Shown here: positions 8,405 through 18,825 of the stretch, one piece after another
Position numbering within the stretch: position 1 is the first letter of the stretch
Layout: every line of letters starts with the position of its first letter
Assembly (NCBI GenBank): GCA_023301025.1
Contig: JALZUR010000020.1
Location: 1-64,000 of the forward strand
Length of the DNA: 64,000 nucleotides
Direction: 5' to 3'
Origin: Bdellovibrionales bacterium
GTDB lineage: Bacteria > Bdellovibrionota > Bdellovibrionia > Bdellovibrionales > UBA1609
The notes under the pieces: generated by a model
Database searches by the model: none
The model's input: only the letters and a program-made list of their open reading frames with translations
Told to the model about the DNA's origin: nothing
Made by a program: the position numbers and the translations under genes

Positions 8405-8534
8405 AAGACCTCCTAATATCCAAAAAAGAAGTGAAAATGCTTAATCAGCTGACACCAGTCTCTTTTTCTTAAAAGTTTAAAACTCTTGCATTTTAATTTG
8501 AGTGAGAATAAACATATATAAGTTCAGGAGTCAT

Positions 8535-9035
8535 ATGGAAAAGGTTAAAGTTAACAACGACGGTTCAATCGATTTTAAAACAGGGGAATCTATTCCGACC
8601 ACGGCTAAAAGATTTCGTCAAAGCCCTGAAATTGAAGCCTTTTATCGATTTGTCTATGAAAATGACTTAAGAGAAGAAGCTCTCACAATTTTAGATGAAA
8701 TCAGAGACGAAAGAGAAGATTTAAAGCTCTTAGAAAAAGAAAAGAAAAAAGAAGCTAAAAAGTTAGCCAAGGCCACAGCAGTAGCTGAAAAAAAGAAAAG
8801 TACAACAGAAGCGAAAAAAGCATCTACTAAGGCTGTAAGTAAAACTCCAGCTAAAAAGACAGCAAAAAAAGCTTCGACTAAGAAGAGTACAGCTAAAAAA
8901 GCCACTCCTGCGAAAAAAGTAGCCTCAAAAAAAGCTGCTAAAAAGGCTACATCTAAAAAGGCTACATCTAAAAAGAAGAGCCCAGCTAAAAAAGCTAAAG
9001 CTAAAAAAACAGCATCAAATAAAAAGAAAAAATAA
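8535..9035 (+). CDS. Small protein with histone H1-like Lys/Ala/Thr-rich tail
   Basis: Start moved from 8502 to ATG 8535 (AGGAG upstream); MEKVKVNNDGSIDF... followed by KKA/TKKA repeats. Confidence 0.8.
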   Translation: MEKVKVNNDGSIDFKTGESIPTTAKRFRQSPEIEAFYRFVYENDLREEALTILDEIRDEREDLKLLEKEKKKEAKKLAKATAVAEKKKSTTEAKKASTKAVSKTPAKKTAKKASTKKSTAKKATPAKKVASKKAAKKATSKKATSKKKSPAKKAKAKKTASNKKKK

Positions 9036-9045
9036 ACTCAAACTA

Positions 9046-10623
9046 CTAAAAGTTTGGTTTAAAAGAAGTGTTCCAGTTGCTGGCATCAATATCAAAGCCA
9101 GTTGAGTCTACAACAGCTGCCACTGTCCACCCTCTTAAGTTTTGGTTAAATCGCTCAGCTTTGTTAAACATTCCACTCATGTCAGTAACTCTAGAAACAT
9201 TCCATGCCCCAATGTCTTGATTAAAATTTGCAGAAAGTCTAAACATTTCATGCATGTCGGTCACTTGACCCACATTCCATGAACCTATGTCTCTGTTAAA
9301 AACTTGATTTTGATAGAACATCCCAGACATATCTGTAACACTTGAAGTGTTCCAACTGCTAATGTCACCATTAAAGGCTATTGCTGAATGAAACATGTCT
9401 TTCATATTTGTAACAGAACTTACATCCCATCTGTTTAAGTCAATATTTAAAAAATCAACACTAAAAAACATTGAACTCATATCTGTAACTTTCGATACAT
9501 TCCACGACCCAATATCTTGTGCAAAGGCATTAGCAGTATTAAACATTGAACTCATGTTAGTAACGTTTGATACGTTCCATGGGCTTATATTTTGATTGAA
9601 TCTATAAGAACGCTCAAACATTGAACTCATGCTAGTAACACTGTTGACTCTCCAACCACTAATATCTTGATTGAAACTTTGTGCATCATAAAACATTCGA
9701 TCCATACTTCTTACACTGCTCACATCCCAACTGCTGATATCTAAATCAAACATCGGTGTGTTTTCAAAAGTAGATCTCATATCAGTTACACTTGTTGTGA
9801 TCCAGTTGCTAAGATCTCCAACACTAAAAGACACGGCACCATCAAAAGTTCTTACCATACTAGTAACTCCAATTGTGCTGCCCCCACTTACAGAAATTAA
9901 ATTAATACAGTTTTTAAATGCACCATCTAGATTTACAAGTCCTACATTTCCTAAGTCTAGAACTGAAATAAGTTTAGTGGCATCATCTCGCACATCTTCA
10001 TAAGACCAAGCCTCTACAACACCAGCAATAACAACTCTGAATGCTCCAACTTTATCACCATAGTCATGGAAGCGATCTACATCATCACTAGAATTTACAG
10101 TTGATGAAGTTCCATCTCCCCAATCCACAGAAAAATTATAATTGAACCCAGTTTTTAAAGGGAGTGTTAAATCATTCTCACCCTCTTCTAATAAAAAATC
10201 CATAACCATTAAATCATTTGCATACTCATAACTTACAAAAGAACTTGAACATTCAGAACGGTCTTTGCCTTCAATCTCTCTTGTAGAGAAAAATGTATGT
10301 GTTCCAAGTGTAAGATTCGAAACTGGTATATCTACATAATCAATTTCTGCAATTGCACGACCAACTTCAAATTGACACTCGCTATCTGAATAGATTTTAA
10401 CTATATTATCAGAACCAACACCACCGACACGAACAACAATTGAATCTACAATATTGGGAGTCATAGCTGGGGCTGCTAATGTCATAAAGTTTGGAGCAGA
10501 GAATCTTCCGTTTCTATCTACAGAATTGATTGTCGAAAACTCAACATCTGAACCAGAAGAACAAGCCACCACAAAAAGACTAAGAAAACTGATAAGAATA
10601 AATATTATTTTTTTACTGTTCAT
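9046..10623 (-). CDS. Surface lipoprotein with BspA-like (DUF285) leucine-rich repeats
   Basis: Track start 10734; better start at ATG 10623 giving MNSKKIIFILISFLSLFVVACSSGSD lipoprotein signal; many VTDMSGMF...FNQDIGSWNVS units. Confidence 0.9.
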   Translation of the reverse strand: MNSKKIIFILISFLSLFVVACSSGSDVEFSTINSVDRNGRFSAPNFMTLAAPAMTPNIVDSIVVRVGGVGSDNIVKIYSDSECQFEVGRAIAEIDYVDIPVSNLTLGTHTFFSTREIEGKDRSECSSSFVSYEYANDLMVMDFLLEEGENDLTLPLKTGFNYNFSVDWGDGTSSTVNSSDDVDRFHDYGDKVGAFRVVIAGVVEAWSYEDVRDDATKLISVLDLGNVGLVNLDGAFKNCINLISVSGGSTIGVTSMVRTFDGAVSFSVGDLSNWITTSVTDMRSTFENTPMFDLDISSWDVSSVRSMDRMFYDAQSFNQDISGWRVNSVTSMSSMFERSYRFNQNISPWNVSNVTNMSSMFNTANAFAQDIGSWNVSKVTDMSSMFFSVDFLNIDLNRWDVSSVTNMKDMFHSAIAFNGDISSWNTSSVTDMSGMFYQNQVFNRDIGSWNVGQVTDMHEMFRLSANFNQDIGAWNVSRVTDMSGMFNKAERFNQNLRGWTVAAVVDSTGFDIDASNWNTSFKPNF

Positions 10624-10978
10624 ACATATCAAATCGACAGTCAAGACTTTGGTCTTGAGATAAAAAGAGCAATAGTGTCTCACTCTGATTCTATTTTCGT
10701 GAATTTGTACAAATTTTTTAGAAAGTGTTGCCAAATCTTAGCGATAGATTGAAGTCTTACTCATTTTGAAACAAAAAGTCTTAATAGTATTTAATCTTTC
10801 TTTTTCTGATAAAAGCTCAATCAAATACCCATTAAACTGTATGTTAGTTGAATAAATGTAAAAAATTTACACGTATAAAGATGAAACAAAAGCTCTGTAG
10901 CCCTTATTTGAAAGGCCTTGTTTTTAGTTATATATAAGGCACTCTTTTTGCTAGTAGATATGTATAACAGGAGCTTAT

Positions 10979-14505: not shown

Positions 14506-14551
14506 ATTTAAAGTTCACTTAAATTACATTTAAGCTAAGCCGAGCTTTTGC

Positions 14552-14583
14552 AAAAACCTCTTGTATATCAGGAGGTTTTTTTT
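14552..14583 (+). promoter_or_regulatory. Hairpin with T8 tract overlapping the Shine-Dalgarno of the pilin-like gene
   Basis: AAAAACCTC (14552-14560) / GAGGTTTTT (14572-14580), 9 bp perfect; contains GGAGG, followed by ATG at 14584. Confidence 0.6.
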
Positions 14584-14838
14584 ATGAAAAAACAGACAAA
14601 AAAACAAAAGGGACAAAGTCTTACAGAGTACTTAATACTTGTAGCCTTAGTTGCCGTATCAGCTATTGGAGTAGTGGAACTTTTAGGACAAACCACCAGA
14701 ACTCAATTTGCAAACATAACAAATGCTCTTCAAGGAAGTCATGCAAAGCAAATAAAATCAGAAAAAATTAGAGAAACACATCATTCTAAAAAAGATTTAA
14801 GCAATTTTATGAGAAATTCATCTGGCAGAAATAACTGA
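14584..14838 (+). CDS. Flp/Fap-type (class III prepilin-like) pilin
   Basis: MKKQTKKQKGQSLTEYLILVALVAVSAIGVVELLG: G/QSLTEY cleavage and hydrophobic helix typical of Flp pilins; start moved from 14548. Confidence 0.8.
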   Translation: MKKQTKKQKGQSLTEYLILVALVAVSAIGVVELLGQTTRTQFANITNALQGSHAKQIKSEKIRETHHSKKDLSNFMRNSSGRNN

Positions 14839-14870
14839 TGGGATGATCAGTTGATCACTTATATTTTAAA

Positions 14871-15290
14871 ATGACAAAAGAAAACAAATATAAAACACCA
14901 AAAGAGAGCGTGACCAGAAAATCATCTCAATCAGGACAGGCCTTAATTGAAACAACTGTTATACTGTTATTTTTAGTTCCTTTTGTAATTTTACTTTTTT
15001 CAACATCATATTTGATCTACTCATCTGAAATTTCATCTTTTAAACTCTACAGAACTCTCATTTGCACAGAAGAGTTAAAAAAAACAGAGTATCAGTGTAA
15101 AAAAAAGGTATTAAAAGAGCTTCAGTCTTTTTTATTCTTTCACGAAGATTTAAAACTTAAGTTACAAACAAATAATGCACTTAAAAGTATTGTTCTAAAT
15201 TCTAAGTATCAACCTATTAAGTTTTTAAAACCGTTAAGCCTAAAATATAGAAAAGAACTTAAAGTCAAAAGTAGTAGTAACCTACCATGA
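14871..15290 (+). CDS. TadE-like pseudopilin
   Basis: SQSGQALIETTVILLFLVPFVILLFSTSYLI, TadE-like G-x(3)-E motif and hydrophobic segment. Confidence 0.7.
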   Translation: MTKENKYKTPKESVTRKSSQSGQALIETTVILLFLVPFVILLFSTSYLIYSSEISSFKLYRTLICTEELKKTEYQCKKKVLKELQSFLFFHEDLKLKLQTNNALKSIVLNSKYQPIKFLKPLSLKYRKELKVKSSSNLP

Positions 15291-15937
15291 TGTTTTTTCT
15301 ACCTATCACAACACTTTTTATAACAGGATTAATGGCAGCACTTGCTTTTATTGGAGTTAGAAAAACTCTTACAAAAGAGCTAAACCTTTGCATAACAAAA
15401 GTCACATACATTCAAAGAGAGCACAGGGCCACAACTAACAAACTTCTTAGTATGAATAAAACTGCAAAAATTCTAAGAGTTTCAAGAAAAACTGCGAAAG
15501 CTGCATATCTTCTAGCTATTCCTGGCCCCCCGAAAGCTACAGCCTATACAGCTCTTAATGCTGTTAAATACTCACAAAAAGTTTTTAGACTTAGACAAAA
15601 TTATCTTATTCAAAAGTCACACCTTAAAACTGTAAAATTTTACAAATCTATGCTTTTGAATGGCTTTATGCAAAAGTCATATAATTTTCCAAACTTAAAA
15701 ATCAGGAAAACTCATAAAGAATCTGATAGCCCAGGATATGAACTTATTGATGATTACACGAAAAAGAAAAGTCTTGTTTTTTTTAAATACATAAATCTCT
15801 TAGAGTATGTCCCAAAATCTTTAGTACGATTCTTAAAACAAAAAAATTTTTCACACATACAAAAACTAAATTGTGGTTCAACTCTATTAGAAAAGGATAA
15901 AAAGGCATGGAATATAAAGCTAATCATGGGCAAATAG
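15287..15937 (+). CDS. Membrane-anchored protein of the pilin-like cluster
   Basis: N-terminal TM MMFFLPITTLFITGLMAALAFIGV; ATGA-type overlap with preceding ORF. Confidence 0.65.
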   Translation: MMFFLPITTLFITGLMAALAFIGVRKTLTKELNLCITKVTYIQREHRATTNKLLSMNKTAKILRVSRKTAKAAYLLAIPGPPKATAYTALNAVKYSQKVFRLRQNYLIQKSHLKTVKFYKSMLLNGFMQKSYNFPNLKIRKTHKESDSPGYELIDDYTKKKSLVFFKYINLLEYVPKSLVRFLKQKNFSHIQKLNCGSTLLEKDKKAWNIKLIMGK

Positions 15938-16065
15938 CAATTGAAGTCATACTTATTGTATTTGCTTTGGTTTTAATTTTAGTAAATTTTAGTACAGGAA
16001 GCAGCAACTACTTAAAGCTTCATAAAAGTGTAAATCAAGATGAACTTAGAACACTCAGTCTTTAA
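15907..16065 (+). CDS. 52-aa TadE-like pseudopilin (not in ORF track)
   Basis: MEYKANHGQIAIEVILIVFALVLILVNFSTGSSNYLKLHKSVNQDELRTLSL*; overlaps both neighbours, G-x(3)-E followed by a hydrophobic helix. Confidence 0.7.
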   Translation: MEYKANHGQIAIEVILIVFALVLILVNFSTGSSNYLKLHKSVNQDELRTLSL

Positions 16066-16567
16066 TAAGTACTTTAATCCAAAGTATGAAAAACAAGTTT
16101 TATTTTCACTAGGCCTTCTAAGCTCTTTAATGGTTTTAATAGTTTTTTTTCTACTAGATGAAAAACCACTCATTGAAACACAAGTAGAAAGTACAATGAA
16201 TCTGTCCGTGATGATTCCAGAAGGTCATATTCTCTACCCTTTTGAGGTAGAAAATTATGAAGGAGTGGATTCTCTTTTAGACACCTATAGTATGGTTAAA
16301 GTCTACTCATCAATAGATGGAAGCCTTTTAGCCAAAAACATAAAAACCTTAAGGGCTCCGAAAGATCCCTCAAAACTAGCTTTTCTTATACCTTTTGAAG
16401 TAGCAGATTTTTTTGCAAGACAAGGACAAGTTTATAGAATCGTTGTTCAAAAGTATGATCCAAATAAAAAAGCTAAAATTGTAAGAAAAAAACCTTTAAC
16501 ACAATCAAAAAAACAAAAGACATCAGTAACTTTTGGAAGTTTAAAAGATGAAACTAAAGATAATTAA
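16040..16567 (+). CDS. CpaB/RcpC-like pilus assembly protein (tentative)
   Basis: Single N-terminal TM; MIPEGHILYPFEVENYEGVDSLLDTYSMVKVYSS...LLAKNIKTLRAPK...AFLIPFEVADFFARQGQVYRIVVQK resembles RcpC/CpaB layout. Confidence 0.5.
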   Translation: MNLEHSVFNKYFNPKYEKQVLFSLGLLSSLMVLIVFFLLDEKPLIETQVESTMNLSVMIPEGHILYPFEVENYEGVDSLLDTYSMVKVYSSIDGSLLAKNIKTLRAPKDPSKLAFLIPFEVADFFARQGQVYRIVVQKYDPNKKAKIVRKKPLTQSKKQKTSVTFGSLKDETKDN

Positions 16568-16586
16568 TATAAGTTATGATTTTTTA

Positions 16587-17666
16587 ATGAGAACAAAGAT
16601 TAACTTTATGTTTATCTTACTGATAAGCTTTTTTAGCATAAATACCTTAGCAAATGGAAAAGTTATAGCCTTAGGATCACAAACTAAAATAAAAGATTTT
16701 AAAGACTACCTAATAGATCACCCTGCATACATCTCCCTAAGCCAAAAGCTTATCGATCAAAAGATACAGTTTGCAAATGCCCTCATTGAAGACAAATTTA
16801 ACTTAGCTGTAAAAGGACTTGTTTTAAAAGATCTAACCCCCTCAATCTTTATATTCAAAGAAATCACTGATTTTCATAAAAAATCTTACATCTTTTCAAA
16901 TAAAAATCTTAATATCTACAGTGAATCTTTTTATAGGCTAGCTAACATTGATCGCACACATTCAGACTACTGGATGAACAAGGGTATTTACTTTAACCCT
17001 ACATACAAAATATCTGAAGAGATTTTTAATCCTTATATAATAAAAGAACAAAACTTAGAGAAGACACGTTTACACCCCTATTTTTACAGATTCAGCACTA
17101 AGCCAATTACAGCTCGCTGGTCTAGGCTTTTTATTAACGGCTTTGAGGTTAAAAATGAAACTCTCATACACCCTAGTCAGCGCTATACCTTACTCTACTT
17201 TAGAGAGGGAAAAATTCCTTTACAGACCGAACATGAAGGTACAGAGTTTCAGAAAATGCAAAAGCCAAAAATGACTTCTATGAATTTTGGAAACTGTCAA
17301 AAACCTAAGTTTTTTGAAGATACACTTAGAAAAAGTGTCGATGCTGTTTTTTACTCTAAAGACTGTATCATCACTAAGAATGATTTTAATAAAAACCTCT
17401 TACTATCAAGTGAAGCAGAAGACAGTCTAGAAATTTTTGACTCTTCTTCAGACTTTTACAAGAGTAAAATAAAAAATATAAACTCTTTTACATCTAAGAA
17501 TAAACCTCTTAATCTATCAAAGCCTTTAAGTAAAAAAGCTTTTTTTAAAAGAAAAAAAACCTGGTACATTATTACTGGTGGACTAATTTTAACTTCAGCT
17601 GCTCACTTTTTTAAAAATAAATTAAACTCAAAACCGCAGATAAAACCAGTACATCATGAAAAATAA
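16587..17666 (+). CDS. Secreted hypothetical protein with C-terminal TM anchor
   Basis: Start at 16587 gives signal peptide MRTKINFMFILLISFFSINTLANG; C-terminal TM TWYIITGGLILTSAAHFF. Confidence 0.65.
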   Translation: MRTKINFMFILLISFFSINTLANGKVIALGSQTKIKDFKDYLIDHPAYISLSQKLIDQKIQFANALIEDKFNLAVKGLVLKDLTPSIFIFKEITDFHKKSYIFSNKNLNIYSESFYRLANIDRTHSDYWMNKGIYFNPTYKISEEIFNPYIIKEQNLEKTRLHPYFYRFSTKPITARWSRLFINGFEVKNETLIHPSQRYTLLYFREGKIPLQTEHEGTEFQKMQKPKMTSMNFGNCQKPKFFEDTLRKSVDAVFYSKDCIITKNDFNKNLLLSSEAEDSLEIFDSSSDFYKSKIKNINSFTSKNKPLNLSKPLSKKAFFKRKKTWYIITGGLILTSAAHFFKNKLNSKPQIKPVHHEK

Positions 17667-18825
17667 GAAAAATATTTTTGATTTTGACAAAAGCTTTGAC
17701 AGTCACGTTCATTTTTTTGGAGTGGGCTTGAGTGCTACAGACTGGATTATAAAATCAAAAACTCTTGCGCTTCCTAAGCATTTAGAAGAAAGAAATTTTA
17801 TAAAAGGCTTTGGCTTAGATACGAATATTTCTGAAGAGGCGTTAGAAAGTTTAAAAAAAGAACACCCTAATAAAGAGTTTTGCTTGTCATTTACTGATGG
17901 ACACAGCTCTTTAGTGTCTAAGAATTTACTAGAAAAGTACAATTTTATCCCAAATCTAAAAGAATCAAAAGAGCATAAAGATTTTGTAAGTCTTTATGAA
18001 ACTGAAAGGGATAAGTTTTTAAAGTGTTTGCCAAAAAGAAGCTATAATGATCTTAAGCTTATGGCTCTTAAAGCTTTTGAGTACTTTGAAGCAAAATCTA
18101 TAAAAAAAATAAGGCATATGACCTGCACAAAGATGCAGTGGGATGTTTTAAAAGAACTCTACTCTATAGATAACTATAAACACCCTACTCCAAAACTTGA
18201 AATACACTGTTACTTTGCAGATTTTATGGAGCAAACTTTTGAAGAAGCTTATGAAGCTTACTCTTACGCCTCAAAAAACCCAATTCATACAAAAACACCA
18301 TTAGTTAAAGCCTCTGGCTTAAAGCTTTTTGTGGACGGTTCATTTGGGCAAAATACGGCTTATGTCTCTTGTTTTAAAGACTCCACACCTAGACTTAGCT
18401 TTGAAGATTTAAAAGAGCGTATGACTAAGATACTTATCAAGAAAAAAATCTCTTTAGCTCTTCACTGTATAGGAGATCTTGCTTTAGAGATGTCTATAAA
18501 GATCTACAGTGAACTTTTTGATTTAGACCAAAACTTAGCTGAACTTCATATTGAGCATGCACCTATTTTTACAAAAGAAAGCCTTAGCATCTTAAACTCT
18601 AAAGACCTTAAGATAAATTTTCACTTTCAGCCATCACACTGGATAGAAGATCAACACTGGTACAGAAAGAATAAGTCTAAACTTAAGGATCACAGCATAT
18701 ACCCTTTTAATGAACTCAACTCTCTTGATTACTCTTTTTTCATGGGGAGTGATGCTCCTGTTGAAGAGAGCAGTAATGACAAAACTATTGATGGATTAAC
18801 TTTTATTTCAAAAGATCAAACTTAA
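17656..18825 (+). CDS. Amidohydrolase-family (amidohydrolase_3-like) metallohydrolase
   Basis: FDSHVHFFGVG (HxH), HCIGDLALEMSI, LHIEHAPIFTKES, FFMGSDAPVE. Confidence 0.8.
   Translation: MKNKKNIFDFDKSFDSHVHFFGVGLSATDWIIKSKTLALPKHLEERNFIKGFGLDTNISEEALESLKKEHPNKEFCLSFTDGHSSLVSKNLLEKYNFIPNLKESKEHKDFVSLYETERDKFLKCLPKRSYNDLKLMALKAFEYFEAKSIKKIRHMTCTKMQWDVLKELYSIDNYKHPTPKLEIHCYFADFMEQTFEEAYEAYSYASKNPIHTKTPLVKASGLKLFVDGSFGQNTAYVSCFKDSTPRLSFEDLKERMTKILIKKKISLALHCIGDLALEMSIKIYSELFDLDQNLAELHIEHAPIFTKESLSILNSKDLKINFHFQPSHWIEDQHWYRKNKSKLKDHSIYPFNELNSLDYSFFMGSDAPVEESSNDKTIDGLTFISKDQT

Follow-up and report, generated by a model that had tools for sequence, protein, structure and literature searches.

Does a group of pilin-like genes that had been described as an orphan belong to a pilus machine, and if so to which? 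The genes in question occupy positions 14584-17666 of the window, the whole 64,000-nucleotide (nt) stretch of DNA that was analyzed (C20:1-64000, contig JALZUR010000020.1), from a draft genome of a Bdellovibrionales bacterium (2.03 Mb, 97.5% complete, 55 contigs). A first-pass annotation had read them as a candidate undescribed surface appendage or pseudopilus system that lacks CpaF ATPase and secretin and either borrows a distant Tad machine or is a minimal derived system. Searches of the same genome, run family by family, and comparison with relatives now point to another answer. The cluster probably encodes the pilins and alignment ring, one half of a second Tad-type (type IVb) pilus that is ancestral to the Bdellovibrionia and kept by nearly all members of this class.

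The six plus-strand genes lie where the first-pass annotation had placed them, with the sequences that it quoted, and are tightly packed and mostly overlapping; the intergenic gaps from the first gene, flp3, through to the amidohydrolase gene behind the last are +32, -4, -31, -26, -20 and -11 nt. A search with the 372-amino acid (aa) product of the last gene, p350, yielded 10 relatives, in which neighbourhoods were compared and gene families aligned; the order of the six genes is conserved in relatives. The flp3 gene (14584-14838) encodes a Flp-type pilin of 84 aa with the Flp motif GQSLTEYLILVALVAV and a conserved C-terminal KKDLSNFM motif. Single window proteins were matched weakly by Pfam: Flp_Fap matched Flp3 with 21.4 bits, below the curated cut-off of 32.2 (E 2.2e-4 to 3e-4), and TadE matched the second protein with E 0.43. 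Flp_Fap was matched by all 11 aligned Flp3 relatives, across which G10, E15 and Y16 of a class III-like leader (G-x4-EY) are invariant. The second gene, tadE2 (14871-15290), encodes a TadE/TadF-like putative minor prepilin of 139 aa (GQALIETTVILLFLVPF) with a GQALIE leader and two invariant cysteines. Its best relative matched TadE with E 3.7e-5, and the tadE2 profile matched the TadF of the canonical tad locus of the same genome (E 1.5e-5), the match being confined to leader and transmembrane (TM) segment.

The third gene, tadG2 (15287-15937, 216 aa), had been taken for a membrane-anchored TadE-like pseudopilin. An N-terminal TM segment is indeed present, but the gene stands at the TadG position, and the G-type prepilin leader that most relatives carry is missing from the window protein, where an in-frame stop codon lies directly upstream. 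C35, Q43, N57, Q104 and C196 are invariant in its alignment. No Pfam match was found for tadG2, and profile comparison with canonical TadE gave no match either. The gene mp (15907-16065) overlaps the genes on both sides and encodes a prepilin of 52 aa (GQIAIEVILIVFALVLILVNF) with a GQIAIE leader, of which G8 and E13 are invariant. Order, size and leader motifs of these minor pilins agree with TadE/TadF/TadG; in terms of profiles, TadE was matched by 3 of 11 members, TadF by 2 of 11 and the TadG position by 0 of 11. The Tad-like nature of the genes, claimed earlier, is upheld.

The product of cpaB2 (16040-16567, 175 aa) consists of a TM helix and one compact beta-alpha domain. When its AlphaFold model (mean predicted local distance difference test score, pLDDT, 85.8) was compared with 350,542 PDB chains by Foldseek, the best match was 9gzr_A, RcpC of Pseudomonas aeruginosa (prob 0.99), at a modest absolute E-value of 0.049; the first unrelated match followed at prob 0.15. 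Sequence profiles gave no match in Pfam, among PDB sequences or with CpaB1 of the same genome. The name CpaB/RcpC-like, already proposed in the first-pass annotation, may thus be retained on the strength of a modelled fold, unsupported by sequence. The last gene, p350 (16548-17666), is predicted to encode a secreted, membrane-anchored protein with a signal peptide, a helical domain, a beta domain with two invariant cysteines and a C-terminal TM helix. Its model (pLDDT 82.5) found no confident fold match in the PDB, and identification as a TadD-like pilotin was supported by neither Pfam nor the fold search.

The neighbourhood of these genes in relatives shows that they do not stand alone. With the Flp alignment alone as query, 80 loci were collected from named Bdellovibrionota genomes, a few of which also belong to the first set of relatives, and gene order was read with hidden Markov models, one per gene family. 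The ancestral order, seen also in Bdellovibrio bacteriovorus strain kdesi (L114), is folD(-), flp, tadE, tadG, mp, cpaB2, p350, amidohydrolase(-), REC (a response regulator), cpaC2, cpaF2, aspS(-). In 72 of the 80 loci tadE, tadG and cpaB2 were found together with flp, which upholds the gene-neighbourhood conservation that had been put forward as a check; mp is present in 68 of the 80. Downstream DNA exceeded 9.8 kb in 47 loci; of these, 30 have cpaF2 within it and 37 the response regulator.

Distribution was studied in a sample of 369 genomes of the phylum, of which the 144 of the window's family, order and class were counted (by hand, from listed rows), Flp3 and CpaF2 being scored separately. 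Flp3 is present in 133 of these class genomes and CpaF2 in 132; 126 have both, 7 Flp3 only, 6 CpaF2 only and 5 neither, and every class genome without Flp3 or CpaF2 is less than 95% complete. Each was found as a single copy at the thresholds used. For the co-occurrence Fisher p is 6e-4, a value affected by shared incompleteness and relatedness and not to be over-read. This pattern bears on the chief alternative, in which flp3, tadE2, tadG2 and mp supply the main Tad pilus with an interchangeable set of tip or adapter proteins, resembling the Kil system of Myxococcus, and CpaF2 and CpaC2 serve something else. In Kil one fibre is common to several minor-pilin "Tips" and Flp adapters, the Tip genes occur in separate clusters, one of which includes a small Flp adapter of its own, and the adapters are transcribed at a very low level (PMC12075869); in the window genome, moreover, the pilins are split from the motor and the main Tad is complete. 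However, a tip set would have no use for the dedicated motor, secretin and alignment-ring protein to which these pilins are ancestrally linked, and flp3 and cpaF2 co-occur nearly perfectly. The tip/adapter explanation is considered unlikely.

In the window genome the locus is split, the half with REC, cpaC2 and cpaF2 lying on contig C36 beside aspS. The two halves are internal to contigs of 127 and 58 kb, and the same split is found in relative G015 inside contigs of 146 and 66 kb, which rules out an artefact of contig ends. In G002 and G015 the pilin half adjoins fusA as it does in the window and the motor half lies elsewhere; the split is therefore a genuine rearrangement rather than a product of assembly. 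The C36 ATPase, CpaF2, whose gene adjoins the pilin genes in many relatives, matched T2SSE (1.6e-32) and the TadA-family profile TIGR03819 (2.2e-46, below the cut-off of that profile). Its Walker A, Glu-box, GE-x-RG and TGH...H motifs are invariant across 12 genomes. In a tree of 32 CpaF proteins CpaF2 forms one clade (support 100/100), apart from the CpaE-CpaF fusions of canonical loci (100/99) and from a third, stand-alone CpaF (99/99). Terminal branches of the CpaF2 clade have a median of ~1.3 versus ~0.16 for the fusions, the longest being that of the window genome (3.16); evolution is thus ~8 times faster on these branches than for the canonical ATPase, the catalytic residues nonetheless remaining invariant. 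CpaC2 of relatives contains a strong Secretin domain (1e-34 and 4e-37), and CpaC2 is diverged also in relatives with a split locus.

A large secreted Gly/Asn-rich protein is encoded next to REC-cpaC2-cpaF2 on C36 (L009 10598-12364), and a gene of similar kind occurs there in relatives; no homologue of the protein was detectable in the loci fetched. Genes of this position give some ground for a Tad-derived secretion device, in which a short pseudopilus would act as a piston exporting a dedicated substrate, e.g. the 500-700 aa secreted protein beside the response regulator, rather than form a surface fibre. The large secreted-protein gene lies between amidohydrolase and REC-cpaC2-cpaF2 in relatives, and the KKDLSNFM motif of Flp3 is conserved beyond the usual Flp core. 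Set against this are the constant presence of a full-length Flp-type pilin, the lack of any known secretion phenotype and the failure to detect, in other loci, any counterpart of the secreted protein on C36, so that a secretion device appears improbable.

The same genome also holds a canonical Tad locus. Six T2SSE-family ATPases were found above the cut-off. Contig C26 carries genes for TadE-like and TadF-like proteins, CpaB (275 aa), a CpaC secretin (550 aa), a CpaE-CpaF fusion (753 aa) and TadB (299 aa), after which the contig end cuts the locus; gene order identifies the start of C30, with Flp-like genes and a TadV/CpaA peptidase, as its continuation. TadC is encoded on C55 beside FHA-domain genes, and TadC of B. 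bacteriovorus (Bd0470) is likewise encoded apart from the main Tad operon (PMC6561027). The canonical Tad ATPase (L008 8430-10691, on C26) is a CpaE/MinD-like domain fused to CpaF, ~750 aa, in all relatives examined. The third, stand-alone CpaF-family clade, ~370 aa, is represented on C22 (L010 6441-7571) and in relatives, and no pilus genes surround the C22 copy.

An orphan cluster without CpaF or secretin is thus ruled out, both by this canonical locus and by the dedicated, ancestrally adjacent cpaF2 and cpaC2 on C36. That part of the machine would be encoded at a distance had been rightly anticipated, the motor and secretin half being on C36, TadB on C26 and TadC on C55. The genome does have, as the first-pass annotation had allowed for, a complete tad locus in which Flp, TadE, TadF and CpaB are also encoded, but the cluster genes are conserved across the class all the same. 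The genome search that it recommended recovered cpaF, tadB, tadC, cpaC and tadV elsewhere, TadB, TadC and TadV not being dedicated to the cluster. One TadB and one TadC were found in the genome, with no second pair, and most of 12 nearly complete relatives have one TadB-type and one TadC-type protein beside larger two-domain proteins, a few showing weak or extra matches.

Production of the major pilin may be controlled in its leader. A hairpin (14552-14580, plus strand) with a 12-bp stem and a 5-nt loop pairs the AGGAGG ribosome-binding site (14570-14575) just before the flp3 ATG; its minimum free energy is -15.8 kcal/mol (z = -3.06). Hairpins of similar form with different stem sequences precede flp3 in many relatives. 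By a simple stem score (at least 7 pairs), 76% of flp3 leaders qualify versus 57% of shuffles and 42% of folD leaders, a modest excess; amidohydrolase leaders (n=14, a small set) score even higher than flp3 leaders, so that such hairpins are not peculiar to flp3. Much more specific to flp3 is a TTGC[A/T] element, seen in the window as TTTTGCA (14546-14552, plus strand). In the flp3 leaders of the 80 loci it is usually located 25-45 nt upstream and is itself preceded by a TTTAAA-like box; TTGCA was found 14-60 nt 5' of the start in 40 of 80 flp3 leaders versus 3 of 53 folD and 2 of 53 cpaB leaders. A sigma-54 promoter was considered and rejected, the -24 GG element having no fixed spacing.

From these parts the following mechanism can be proposed. 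The Flp3, TadE2, TadG2 and mp prepilins would enter the membrane through Sec and be cleaved, with TadV or PilD as the shared peptidase, whereupon the dedicated ATPase CpaF2, on the only TadB/TadC platform of the cell, would polymerise Flp3 onto an initiating tip of TadE2, TadG2 and mp. The fibre would leave through the periplasmic ring of RcpC-like CpaB2 and then the CpaC2 secretin, p350 possibly serving as a periplasmic accessory anchored in the inner membrane. Timing of production could be set by the hairpin in the leader together with the linked response regulator. For the window species this scheme presumes that the two halves still work together after the split.

Avidan et al. (2017; PMC5430801) assigned flp1 and flp2 of B. 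bacteriovorus to the TAD operon and described two further pilin genes, flp3 (bd3297) and flp4 (bd4000), that are not part of it. The pilin gene of the window is taken to be orthologous to bd3297, and cpaC2 and cpaF2 to bd3306 and bd3307, since the position of the kdesi locus (3.03 Mb of 3.34 Mb) and the downstream order in relatives (aspS, sigma factors, flagellar genes) fit. With fliA being bd3318, the position near fliA and bd3306/bd3307 led to flp4, which is required for predation, being dropped in favour of flp3. At the level of the pilin the cluster is therefore not undescribed, as had been claimed. The promoter of flp3 does not respond to FliA (PMC5430801). In B. bacteriovorus bd3306 (pilQ) and bd3307 (cpaF) lie near each other beside an RHS element, and bd3307 is listed with the type IVb genes that attack-phase cells express more strongly than host-independent strains do (Capeness et al. 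2013; PMC3818213). The second pilus would likely be an alternative or conditional surface pilus and not the one needed for predation in the laboratory, because the B. bacteriovorus pilin is reported silent and dispensable; this is the weakest step of the argument.

Several observations weigh against a functional second pilus. In HD100 flp3 was silent at every time tested and predation did not suffer from loss of the gene (PMC5430801); hence no fibre is known. The orthology with bd3297, bd3306 and bd3307 is drawn from gene order and numbering, not from direct comparison with HD100 sequence, and the TadE and TadG assignments come from weak profiles plus leader signatures. None of the relatives examined showed TadB or TadC in the locus, the system has no CpaE of its own, and no dedicated TadV/CpaA peptidase is encoded at the cluster, A24 peptidases of the genome being found only at C30 (canonical Tad) and C38. 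In addition, the CpaC2 of the window genome is so diverged that no Secretin domain was detected, CpaF2 there lacks the N-terminal domain and carries the longest branch of its clade, and TadG2 is leaderless; the state of the system in this species is uncertain for these reasons, and it could be decaying or altered. A stronger version, that the ancestral system survives in the window species as a decaying relic, would also account for the split and would suit a genome reduced to 2.0 Mb. Yet all reading frames are open and overlapping, CpaF2 retains every invariant catalytic residue, and G002 and G015 have kept both halves in the same arrangement next to fusA; a relic is regarded as very unlikely.

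If a second pilus is accepted, a more general picture may be put forward tentatively, as one that could well prove wrong: the Bdellovibrionia would run two Tad-type pili on one platform, the first being the one already known from predation and the second being near-universal and fast-evolving, with its own motor, secretin and single-domain ring, and its major pilin would be restrained by a hairpin and made under a condition that is unmet in the laboratory. Two loose ends of Bdellovibrio biology, the silent flp3 and the unassigned pilQ/cpaF pair, would thereby be joined into one testable system kept by nearly the whole predatory class. A single TadB/TadC platform may be able to work with several CpaF motors, with implications for the modularity of Tad systems and for predators that run several type IVb pilins at once.

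The genes that flank the cluster appear to lie outside the system. The 642-aa and 85-aa proteins encoded upstream, which had been counted as possible parts, were rejected because no homologue was found in any other locus fetched; both are encoded within ~5 kb of inserted DNA that separates the ancestral upstream gene (8502-9035) from flp3. That gene encodes a lysine/alanine-rich protein with an N-terminus (KVKVNNDGSIDF...FRQSPEIEAFYRFVYEND) conserved between folD and flp3 in relatives. Also inside the insertion, a lipoprotein-like open reading frame (9046-10734) contains many FNxDISxWNVSxVTxMxxMF repeats and by eye resembles a BspA-type surface protein. Downstream, the plus-strand gene at 17656-18825 encodes an Amidohydro_3 family enzyme (Pfam 2.3e-13), an ancestral neighbour that adjoins p350 in most relatives, usually on the opposite strand; it is probably not a pilus component.

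How does the second system compare with known ones? The RcpC ring of P. aeruginosa (PDB 9gzr; PMC12307814) shares with CpaB2 an N-terminal TM helix and a periplasmic domain, but CpaB2, at 175 aa in total, has one compact domain, and its sequence shows no detectable resemblance to CpaB1 of the same genome. With the canonical Tad/Flp pilus (Caulobacter cpa, Aggregatibacter tad-rcp) the second system has in common the Flp pilin, TadE-like minor pilins, CpaF/TadA ATPase, secretin and CpaB/RcpC-like ring protein. It differs in having no TadB, TadC, TadV or CpaE/TadZ of its own, in its shorter CpaB2, in the additional p350 and linked response regulator, and, in this genome, in being split in two. 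The Kil system of Myxococcus (PMC8460266; PMC12075869) is likewise a Tad-type apparatus of a predator, with separate gene clusters, several minor-pilin sets per genome and Flp adapters that are transcribed at a very low level, like the silent flp3, and PMC8460266 proposes Kil homologues in Bdellovibrionales. The Kil Tip clusters, unlike the second system, which is known here from its genes, have no motor or secretin of their own. The closest counterparts are in B. bacteriovorus itself. The bd3306 "pilQ" and bd3307 "cpaF" genes correspond by synteny to cpaC2 and cpaF2; PMC3818213 draws no link to flp3, and among open-licence papers, the scope of the literature search, none was found that joins flp3 to the bd3306/bd3307 machine. 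By synteny flp3 (bd3297), ~20 locus numbers before fliA, is the orthologous pilin gene; PMC5430801 places it outside any TAD locus, whereas in the loci compared here it is the first gene of a conserved unit of six, with ancestral linkage to a dedicated CpaF and secretin.

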